A stretch of 64,000 nucleotides of DNA from Xanthomonas sp. DAR 35659. Its GTDB lineage: Bacteria > Pseudomonadota > Gammaproteobacteria > Xanthomonadales > Xanthomonadaceae. Below are positions 17,922 to 19,337 of the stretch, piece by piece. The position numbers and the translations under genes are program-made. The DNA is taken from positions 1,850,001 to 1,914,000 of the forward strand of contig NZ_CP162488.1 of assembly GCF_041242975.1 (NCBI RefSeq), written 5' to 3'. The notes beneath the pieces were generated by a model. That model was given only the letters and a program-made list of their open reading frames with translations, did no database searches and had not been told where the DNA came from. Positions within the stretch are counted from its first letter, which is position 1. Each line of letters starts with the position of its first letter.

Positions 17922-18033
17922 GTGGCGATGATCGCGCCGCGCTCGTGGCTGTGGTGTGGAGGCGCTGGGAATGGGGAATGGGGAATCGTTGAAGCAGGTT
18001 GCGTTCCGGCGTAGCGCCAGCCCGTCACGCCTT

Positions 18034-18041
18034 TGTAGGAG
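18034..18041. repeat. Left remnant of the REP split by the IS110 element
   Basis: TGTAGGAG ends exactly where the insertion begins; the REP resumes with CGGCTTCAGCCGCGAC at 19191-19206. Joined, they restore an ordinary REP half. Confidence 0.9.
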
Positions 18042-18048
18042 TCAACTG

Positions 18049-18972
18049 TCATGCAGCAGCGATGACGGGAGGCGCGTAAGAAGCCTGATCGCGCGCGATG
18101 GCATTGAGCCAGCGTAGGTACTTGTGCATGCAGGCGACGATGGCGACCTTGGCCGGTTTGCCGGCCGCTTGCAGGCGCGCATAGGTTTGGGCCAAGGGGG
18201 ATTTGGCGCGGATGCTGGCCCAGGTGGCCATGTACAGCGCGCGGCGCACGTCGCTGCGCCCGCCTTTGATGCGGCGCTGGCCTTGCCAGCGGCCGCTGTC
18301 GTGATTGAACGGCGCCAGCCCGACCAGGGCGGCCAGCTTGCGCGGCGGCAGCGTTCCCAGTTCCGGCAGGCGTGCGGCCAGGGTGGCGCGCAGGATCGGC
18401 CCCAGCCCCGGCACCTTGGGCAGGGTCGAACACGCGTCGGCCTGCTGCTGAAGGTCTCGCTTCAGCGCATCGCTCTGCCGCTTCAGTAGGTCGATCGCTT
18501 CCTGGCAGTGGCGCCGCACCTCCGGGCTGGTGATGTGCTCCAGACGCCGCCGCAGGGCGTCGTGCTGGCCGACCAGAGCATTGCGCAGATCCAGCAGTTC
18601 GCGCAGGTGCTGCAGGTGCTCGGGCAACACGTCCGTCGGGGGGGCCACAATGGCTTGGGCTGTCACGGCCAACAGACGCGCGTCCAGGGCGTCGGTCTTG
18701 GCCTTGATGCCCAGCGCCTTGGCCAACGCACGTGGGCGCTGCGCACACATCCGCACCGCCGGCAGGTTGGCCTGCCGCAGCGTCCGCAGCACCTCATGTT
18801 CGTAGCCGCCGCTGGCTTCCAGCACGATCCGTTCGCACTCCAGCCTCGCCAGACGCTGGACCAGCTCAACGCGCCCTTGCGGCGTGTTGGGCTGGGTCCA
18901 GGCCAGTCCGTCCGGCAGCACATGAATGACCAGTTCGGCCTTGGCAACATCGATCCCGACAAAGCGCCGCAT
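18049..18972 (-). CDS. IS110-family recombinase (DEDD transposase)
   Basis: 307 residues. The N-terminal RuvC-like domain carries the DEDD set: Asp8 (FVGIDVAKAE), Glu52 (IVLEASGGYE), Asp94 and Asp97 (KTDALDARLLA). A coiled-coil stretch follows (about 115-180). The C-terminal Tnp domain has PGLGPILRATLAARLPELG and the HDSG motif with Ser226, then GQRRIKGGRSDVRRALYMAT. In IS621 the equivalent Ser is the nucleophile that acts with the DEDD site under bridge-RNA guidance. All key residues are present, so the enzyme is probably active. ATG at 18972 starts MRRFVGIDVAK. No frameshift or truncation is seen. Confidence 0.95.
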   Translation of the reverse strand: MRRFVGIDVAKAELVIHVLPDGLAWTQPNTPQGRVELVQRLARLECERIVLEASGGYEHEVLRTLRQANLPAVRMCAQRPRALAKALGIKAKTDALDARLLAVTAQAIVAPPTDVLPEHLQHLRELLDLRNALVGQHDALRRRLEHITSPEVRRHCQEAIDLLKRQSDALKRDLQQQADACSTLPKVPGLGPILRATLAARLPELGTLPPRKLAALVGLAPFNHDSGRWQGQRRIKGGRSDVRRALYMATWASIRAKSPLAQTYARLQAAGKPAKVAIVACMHKYLRWLNAIARDQASYAPPVIAAA

Positions 18973-18989
18973 AGACGTTCTCCGCAGTA

Positions 18990-19165
18990 GACTTAGGGTC
19001 GAGAGCGCTCCTGCCAATGCCCAGGCTTGTGATGTTCGAGCTCCCGGCTCAGGCAACTGTTCGGGCTTGTCAGGCAGGAGAACCGGGGTGCGGCGGCACT
19101 GACTCCTACTCGTGCTCGCTTGGCACTGCGGCTTAACGGCCTGCCGCACCCCGCTCTCACCTTCA
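18990..19165 (-). ncRNA. Candidate bridge RNA of the IS110 element, with readable target and donor guides
   Basis: Read on the minus strand, the leader folds into two stem-loops. The target loop is closed by GGGGTGCGGC (19152-19143) with GCCGCACCCC (19094-19085). It holds AAGCCGC (19134-19128), a small GTGC/GCAC hairpin, and GTAGGAG (19109-19103). AAGCCGC equals the left half of the occupied REP up to the first base of the CT core; GTAGGAG is the complement of its right half. The donor loop is closed by CTCCTGCC (19080-19073) with GGCAGGAG (19015-19008). It holds ACAGTTGCCT (19060-19051), which matches the element's right end ACAGTTGACT at 9 of 10 bases, and CACAAG (19031-19026), the complement of CT plus the left end. 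Exact RNA ends are unknown. Confidence 0.88.
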
Positions 19166-19190
19166 ACGATAGACCCTCTTTTGACACAAG

Positions 19191-19206
19191 CGGCTTCAGC
19201 CGCGAC
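19191..19206. repeat. Right remnant of the REP split by the IS110 element
   Basis: CGGCTTCAGCCGCGAC continues the REP interrupted after TGTAGGAG at 18041. No mirrored partner follows, so the target was a single REP half. Confidence 0.9.
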
Positions 19207-19337
19207 ACATCGCCAGGCGGCAAGGTGCGCTGAAACCCCACGCCGTTCCCATTCCCCATTCCCGACTCCCCATTCCCAGCCACCAGCTACAATCCAGGGC
19301 CGCACGACCCACGCATCCCCCAACGGAGACCGTCGCA

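Follow-up and report, generated by a model that had tools for sequence, protein, structure and literature searches.

The window analysed here, a stretch of 64,000 nucleotides, carries an insertion sequence that interrupts a REP sequence. The insertion lies between two genes which we take to be endonuclease-V-like and phosphoglycerate-mutase-like (the nfi-gpmA gap). The features of the locus, including those predicted in the analyses below, are the following:

18040..19188, minus strand: insertion sequence assigned to the IS110 group, 1,149 bp with one core CT counted; ends defined from 10 same-genome copies
18049..18972, minus strand: IS110 recombinase, 307 aa, with DEDD_Tnp_IS110 and Transposase_20 domains
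19189..19204, minus strand: left half of the split REP, CGCGGCTGAAGCCG, comprising the left target and the left core CT (19189-19190)
18034..18041, minus strand: right core CT (18040-18041) and right target CCTACA
18973..19188, minus strand: non-coding leader (left end), 216 nt, or 218 nt with the core
18999..19160, minus strand: predicted bridge RNA, about 162 nt (140 bits with covariance model R1, a hit by construction, R1 having been made from this element's own family)
19153..19160 (5' side) with 18999-19006 (3' side), minus strand: predicted clamp helix P1 (covariation, swap test)
19143..19152 (5' side) with 19085-19094 (3' side), minus strand: target-loop stem P2, 10 bp (covariation)
19112..19126, minus strand: target-loop inner hairpin P3, 19123-19126 pairing with 19112-19115 (covariation)
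19073..19080 (5' side) with 19008-19015 (3' side), minus strand: donor-loop stem P4, 8 bp (covariation)
19128..19134, minus strand: left target guide AAGCCGC, fitting the site and following targets in relatives
19103..19109, minus strand: right target guide GTAGGAG, likewise fitting the site and following targets in relatives
19101..19102, minus strand: target-loop handshake guide TC, complementing the donor GA beside the core
19054..19060, minus strand: left donor guide ACAGTTG (then CCT, where the donor has ACT)
19026..19031, minus strand: right donor guide CACAAG, one base of which tracks the donor throughout (38 of 38 rows whose left end was mapped)
19166..19171, minus strand: predicted -10 box TATCGT, 4/6 to consensus, 17 nt from the junction -35 box
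18040..18045, minus strand: predicted -35 box TTGACT, joined to the leader only in the circle

The ends of the element were set where the ten same-genome copies, which have different flanks, cease to match. The initial annotation had given it a span of 18034..19206, which contains the element but takes in REP flank on both sides. Its layout, with a left end of 216 nt and a right end reaching 9 nt past the stop codon, is that of the IS110 group and not of IS1111. No terminal repeat pair was found in the element by a repeat search, and only short TGTC/GACA-type repeats were noticed by eye. The recombinase matches PF01548 (E 7e-15) and PF02371 (E 2.7e-17), both beyond the cut-off, and also NF033542, the 'IS110 family RNA-guided transposase' (E 1.7e-55; 188.6 bits against a cut-off of 140). 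Profile matches to solved structures include IS621 (E 1.4e-42) and ISCro4 (E 4e-45). Residues D8, E52, D94, D97 and S226, presumably the catalytic DEDD residues and the nucleophilic serine, are invariant in 11 homologues and align with IS621, whose nucleophilic serine is described as S241. Judged by domains, residues and end layout together, the element belongs to the IS110 group.

The host genome (5.4 Mb, one contig) contains 19 IS110 matches; by protein identity, 10 of them fall at 96-100%, 6 at 79-80% and 3 at 30%. Over the 1,149 bp, the nine other close copies include five identical to the window copy, one with a single mismatch and three with 36-46 mismatches; the six nearly or fully identical copies suggest that part of the spread of this element is recent. 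Among named homologues the highest segment identity is to a Stenotrophomonas element (L226, 67%), and several Luteimonas and other genera are also represented. The Stenotrophomonas and Luteimonas matches agree with the initial description of the element as that of a probable xanthomonad.

As had been proposed, the element splits a REP, GTCGCGGCTGAAGCCGCTCCTACA, at the core CT. The same REP is uninterrupted in the orthologous nfi-gpmA gap of 5 of 19 same-genus relatives, being identical over 29 bases in four (L131, L133, L135 and L136) and having its outermost base changed in L132. The other 14 have a degenerate REP (L134), a remnant of a related element (L147) or lack that REP (12 relatives, of which L137, L145 and L146 have other REPs there). 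Sister copies also have empty sites. For copy L009 an exact empty site, in which GAAGCCGCT runs directly into CCTACA, is present in two of five relatives (L261 and L265), and for copy L015 in one of four (L272); the flank search with L019, a copy of the second IS110 type described below, gave no relative matching the whole flank. The comparison with empty sites in related genomes, which the initial annotation had suggested, thus bears out the split: insertion is exact and CT alone is duplicated. All 16 own-genome copies of both close types lie after CCG-CT and before CCTAC in a single orientation. Perfect GAAGYCGCTCCTACA sites number 378 in the host genome, while the reversed pattern is absent.

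The remnant in L147 (genome G019, another species) is the right end of a related element adjoining the same phosphoglycerate-mutase gene, and represents either an independent hit in the same intergenic spot or an old shared insertion. Two same-genus genomes without a perfect REP site (G001 and G012) also have no match to the element, and neither do four REP-rich genomes (G002, G006, G013 and G016). The insertion is itself flanked, at 17964-17986 and 19248-19280, by GGGAATGGGGAATGGG-type repeats in opposite orientation; similar repeats occur in the empty-site relatives and are therefore part of the intergenic region rather than of the element.

The leader is predicted to encode a two-arm RNA with conserved, covarying stems. 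It had been described as a leader of 218 nt with two stem-loops; both stem-loops are present, although the length is 216 nt unless the core is counted. The perfect closing stems of 10 and 8 bp are exact in the sequence (GGGGTGCGGC/GCCGCACCCC for the target loop and CTCCTGCC/GGCAGGAG for the donor loop). An Rfam search of the whole window at gathering thresholds returned no hits, so that curated bridge-RNA families were of no help. Single-sequence folding recovered the two arms and the clamp, but with a z score of -1.33 and 19 of 200 shuffles as stable, and was not taken as proof. We drew 31 clusters from 105 loci whose leaders show GAGAG...(C/T)TCTC, aligned 30 of them, built a covariance model and searched 96 sources, which gave a set of 39 RNAs above 100 bits (A4; the near-duplicate L117 was excluded). 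In A4, which is model-fitted and so leans towards structure, 95.6% of 1,430 cells are paired, against 77.0% when shuffled and 36-49% when partners are slid, and 26 of 37 pairs show two-sided changes. These include all ten pairs of P2 (98.7% of cells paired), three of the four in P3 and all eight in P4 (91.2% paired). The plain MAFFT alignment A2 (30 rows), which is not structure-fitted, has 91.6% of cells paired versus 75.5% when shuffled, with two-sided changes in 24 pairs. P4 is weaker in A2 (74.1%) because A2 is misaligned there: one lineage sits one column off in P2 and further off in P4. One locus, L030, is absent from A2, where the pattern was misanchored, and is correctly placed in A4. 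Covariance across homologues had been named at the outset as the result on which the two stems should stand or fall, and both covary in fitted and unfitted alignments alike.

At the window site, AAGCCGC equals the top strand (AAGCCG plus C) and GTAGGAG complements CT plus CCTAC. The 7-nt pairing proposed for each guide is thus an exact match to the two sides of the site, and follows the rule known for IS621, that the left guide equals the top strand and the right guide complements it. The base of the left target guide opposite the core T is an A and is unpaired; the core T is left unpaired by 19 of 25 distinct left target guides. The view that chance was very unlikely needs dividing. Shuffling the leader 1,500 times by dinucleotide never gave the donor score (15/16), nor both scores together, but gave the target score (14/15) five times (about 0.003). 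The target match alone is consequently only modestly unlikely by chance and called for comparison with relatives, and it is this comparative support, drawn from sequence, that is decisive for the guide decoding.

For this comparison, a donor-side pattern blind to the target guides located both ends in 138 of 238 oriented loci, which fell into 54 leader clusters; the right-end pattern had been loosened before guide scoring, raising the number from 113 to 138 of 238, and the other 100 loci were unusable, either because no end pair was found or because they were cut off. In a free scan of the 54 clusters, leaders scored 12.81/15 on their own target and 10.81 on those of others, the best of 20,000 permutations being 11.39. 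The own target was best or tied in 35 of the 54 and strictly best in 15, many clusters sharing CCTAC; the poorest decoders were L182, L173, L152 and L048. We then counted standard and wobble pairs at fixed columns set by the window element. Since several rows evidently sit one base over, each left guide was allowed two registers and given the higher score, own and swapped targets being treated equally. In the 36 rows whose left target could be read it averaged 6.36/8 on its own target versus 4.45 on different targets (25 distinct guides), own being best or tied in 17 of 25. With a single register the values were 4.84/7 and 3.61 (37 rows). The right guide averaged 4.76/5 versus 3.28 (29 rows). 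For both guides none of 20,000 permutations did as well, although the rows share descent and the permutation figures are not clean probabilities.

Individual relatives illustrate the correspondence. L090 has the guide TGCGCTCCT for the target TGCGCTC-CT and L056 has TCGGCTCT for TCGGCT-CT. L055 carries TAACGCCT and AATTCAG for TAACGC-CT-GAATT, and L058 carries TAACGCCT and AACTCAG for TAACGC-CT-GAGTT, so that the changed target base lies opposite the changed guide base. Some rows decode poorly, including L059 and L057, whose left guides are poor in both registers. The initial annotation had expected matching guide changes in homologues with other targets: overall they are found, with the exceptions just given, and the data support the conclusion that the guides fit their own targets and, on the whole, change in relatives that have other targets.

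Five IS110-group relatives with the same RNA fold (L055, L058, L059, L060 and L062) lie, as judged by eye, in attC-like integron sites and have half-guides that correspond to them. These sites read TAACGC-CT, TAACG-CT or TAACAC-CT followed by GA(A/G)TTAAG, with GTTAGGC further on in L055, L058 and L062. The attC-targeting elements named in the cited literature, as far as its text was available, are IS1111. A second IS110 type, 30% identical and represented in the same genome by L017-L019, sits in the REP of the window element, but 3 nt farther along (GCCGCTC-CT-ACAGG), and second-type elements occur in this REP also at L104-L109 and L125-L127. The L017 leader contains GTCGCTCC (7/8) and ATTGTAG (5/7) at the shifted register, which suggests that this repeat would be contested by two bridge-RNA systems. 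In L065 (genome G338) the leader is present as a tandem duplicate ahead of the gene, possibly reflecting a target-joined or nested insertion; it was excluded from the guide counts.

A naturally occurring one-base variant allows a finer comparison. Elements of genomes G003, G017, G014 and G015 have the guide AAGTCGC in place of AAGCCGC or TAGCCGC. T sites, which are rare (8 of the 378 perfect sites of the host genome), are occupied in 6 of 13 insertions with the AAGTCGC guide. Elements with a C guide are at C in 43 of 43 cases, which is not evidence by itself because T sites are rare and C sites common. Within the exact class GAAG(T/C)CG-CT-CCTACA, which was defined after the copies had been seen and omits L121, L295 and L037, occupied sites in G003 are 3 T to 1 C while intact sites are 7 T to 217 C (Fisher 2.4e-4). 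Taken by itself, G017 gives no significant preference for T (1 T to 3 C occupied, 20 to 336 intact, p 0.21); pooled, the four genomes give 4 to 6 occupied and 46 to 1168 intact (p 4.3e-4). The six G003 left flanks differ from one another, indicating separate insertions. A guide U would pair with A at a T site or wobble with G at a C site, so that both should be accepted with T preferred, as RNA pairing predicts. For G003, these counts favour the view that the one-base difference in the guide accompanies a shift towards the rare matching REP variant.

On the donor side, the initial annotation had both donor guides matching the element ends. The right donor guide CACAAG does so fully (6/6, complementing CT plus TGTG), but the left guide ACAGTTGCCT has one mismatch with the donor ACAGTTGACT (9/10). 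Relatives conserve ACAGTTG (7/7), and its first bases, ACAGT, also begin the IS621 donor guide. Among the elements whose left end was mapped (38 rows), the last bases of the right donor guide are CAAG when the element starts with CTTG (26 rows) and TAAG when it starts with CTTA (12 rows). The two bases past the right guides have a handshake role in IS621 as described (PMC11208158). In the target loop, GA donors go with TC (12/12) and TG donors with a first C (17/17: CA 7, CC 7, CT 3), and in all 29 rows donor position 7 is complementary to the first handshake base. In the window, GTAGGAG plus TC complements GA-CT-CCTAC, the junction at the element's right end. The donor-loop handshake is looser: its first base complements the core-adjacent target base in 31 of 37 rows and its second in 16 of 37, and in the window element the first is complementary and the second is not.

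Joining of the element ends would also create a promoter. In 29 elements of the same RNA type with both ends, the -35 box is TTGACT in 12 and TTGCTT in 17, and the best -10 box lies at spacing 17, as compared with 16 and 18, in 29 of 29. Mean likeness to the -10 consensus peaks at 17 among offsets 8-29 (3.38/6; next 2.79, at 15), single boxes matching at 4/6 in 13 elements, 3/6 in 14 and 2/6 in two. In all 29 elements 4-5 nt separate the end of the -10 box from the first base of the clamp, so that the RNA is predicted to start at the helix that clamps both arms. In the window, P1 has six standard pairs and one wobble, with the outermost G-A unpaired. In A4 its outer pairs covary, whereas the four inner pairs never vary, an invariance that is partly a matter of selection since the panel was chosen by the GAGAG...(C/T)TCTC pattern. 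A swap test used 38 of 46 more distant leaders not chosen for the clamp, near-duplicates having been dropped. Own strands scored 12.53 and those of others 9.57, with none of 20,000 permutations reaching this; many leaders are individually weak, and the places come from a clamp-containing model, a mild bias. The model therefore predicts a compact bridge RNA that lacks a 5' stem-loop and whose arms are held by a clamp, GAGAGC/GCTCTC, at the RNA ends. The window RNA would act as that of IS621 does, but apparently with another layout; the apparent lack of an IS621-type 5' stem-loop depends on the predicted promoter.

Taken together, we think it very probable that this IS110-group element, inserted in a REP at CT, uses a leader bridge RNA of about 160 nt to guide its own recombinase to the REP and to the joined element ends. 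The element ends, the site, its empty counterparts, the identity of copies and the covariation of stems and of guides with targets can be read directly from the sequence comparisons. By analogy with IS621, the circle, the RNA-protein complex, strand exchange and re-insertion would complete the cycle. The element would excise as a circle with the junction ACAGTTGA-CT-TGTGTC. This junction would form the -35/-10 promoter TTGACT-17-TATCGT, from which the bridge RNA would be transcribed; by base pairing, one of its loops would recognise the REP target and the other loop the joined ends. Exchange of the top strands at CT, aided by the handshake bases, would then lead to re-insertion into another of the perfect genomic sites.

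Three other readings deserve consideration. The recombinase might itself read the REP, by its palindrome or its sequence, and the REP-like words in the leader might derive from captured target DNA or from composition. REPs are indeed palindromic and, as reported in the available text of PMC1525189, targets of several IS families, and the five shuffles in 1,500 that reached the target score show that the match by itself is not extreme. This is nevertheless highly improbable, since the guides track targets in relatives at fixed places within conserved stems, both half-guides of the elements at attC-like targets (L055, L058) differ from those for REPs, and the single-base guide difference in G003 goes with a single-base shift in site use. 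The top-strand sense of the left guide and the complementary sense of the right would moreover be needed for RNA pairing and not for a plain copy of the target. The leader RNA might instead act mainly on translation of the recombinase, the guide matches being a side effect. Its predicted 3' end lies 26 nt ahead of the recombinase start codon, and small RNAs of ISPpu9 are discussed as modulators of recombinase expression in the text of PMC11208160. A regulatory role gives no reason for covariation of guides with targets or of handshake bases with donors, and we consider it, as the main function, the least probable of the alternatives; regulation and guidance are in any case not exclusive. It is also very unlikely, if somewhat less so, that the window copy is a dead relic whose decoding records past insertions only. 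Against this stand the open 307-aa frame with its invariant residues and the copies identical over 1,149 bp, or differing at one base, which indicate recent spread. We accordingly retain the bridge-RNA reading of the leader as the preferred one.

Much of this agrees with what has been described for IS621, whose bridge RNA of 177 nt has a 5' stem-loop, a target-binding loop (TBL, 34-98) and a donor-binding loop (DBL, 110-177) (Hiraizumi et al. 2024, PMC11208158; Durrant et al. 2024, PMC11208160). The two systems share, as far as the text of those papers goes, a DEDD/Ser recombinase, a CT core and a REP target, a left guide of top-strand sense and a complementary right guide, a target loop preceding the donor loop, handshake bases past the right guides and a circle-junction promoter, here predicted from sequence. 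They differ in several respects. The recombinase has 307 aa here, and the IS621 chain has 328 residues. The right target guide is 7 nt rather than 4, although some IS621 orthologues are reported to have right target guides longer than 4 nt (PMC11208160). The core T is unpaired in the left target guide here, whereas the IS621 text places the core within all four pairings. A clamp helix on both arms is predicted here, while the text description of IS621 gives a 5' stem-loop and no clamp; if the predicted promoter is right, there is no room for such a stem-loop in the present RNA.

IS110 elements inserted in REPs were the subject of a 2006 study by Tobes and Pareja. That report included ISPpu9 and ISPpu10, with a 2-bp repeat (PMC1525189). 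As in the present genome, its ISPpu9/ISPpu10-type elements include two dissimilar IS110 members that share both a host and a REP; they belong to other hosts, and their guides are not decoded in the available text of that study. ISPpu10 is among the six elements drawn in Fig. 6d of Durrant et al. That paper predicted bridge RNAs in 85.7% of IS110 elements and reported guides covarying with targets across thousands (PMC11208160). SeekRNA systems were described for ISEc21 (IS110) and ISEc11 (IS1111), together with natural retargeting, by Siddiquee et al. (2024, PMC11187229); ISEc21 yielded an RNA of 74 nt that contains target matches. The present element resembles ISEc21 in its upstream non-coding region, in a bottom-strand match preceding the top-strand match and in retargeting among relatives. 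It differs from the 74-nt RNA, as described, in its predicted donor guides and two-arm RNA. A limited search of titles and abstract openings on Xanthomonas bridge RNAs, IS110 and REP found no decoding of this element. The bridge rule, REP targeting by IS110 elements, family-wide bridge RNAs and natural retargeting are already in print in these sources (PMC11208160, PMC11208158, PMC11187229, PMC1525189). Only the clamped RNA layout may differ from known bridge RNAs.

Whether that layout defines a distinct class of compact bridge RNA is a proposal that we regard as plausible but short of an even chance. Such a class would have no 5' stem-loop, a 6- to 8-bp end clamp and modular arms. In the course of evolution a single fold would have been redirected from one REP to others, to a REP variant that differs by one base and to attC sites of integrons, while its handshake bases kept in step with the donor.

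The full guide-to-target decoding originally claimed for this IS110 relative is sustained by stem and guide covariation, with two corrections, the mismatch in the left donor guide and the unpaired core T. A single genome window thus sufficed for reading an IS110 guide-target code, which was then put to the test on natural relatives. In these, one RNA fold appears to carry guides that vary with the REP addressed, and others again for attC-like sites. These relatives provide natural triplets of recombinase, guide and target in a graded set, including two IS110 types that read the same REP 3 nt apart within one genome, on which specificity and tolerance of mismatches such as G-U could be measured. 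The compact clamped RNA, if functional, may offer a smaller bridge-RNA scaffold and, should the clamped class prove distinct, its members would amount to a set of bridge recombinases already reprogrammed by nature.
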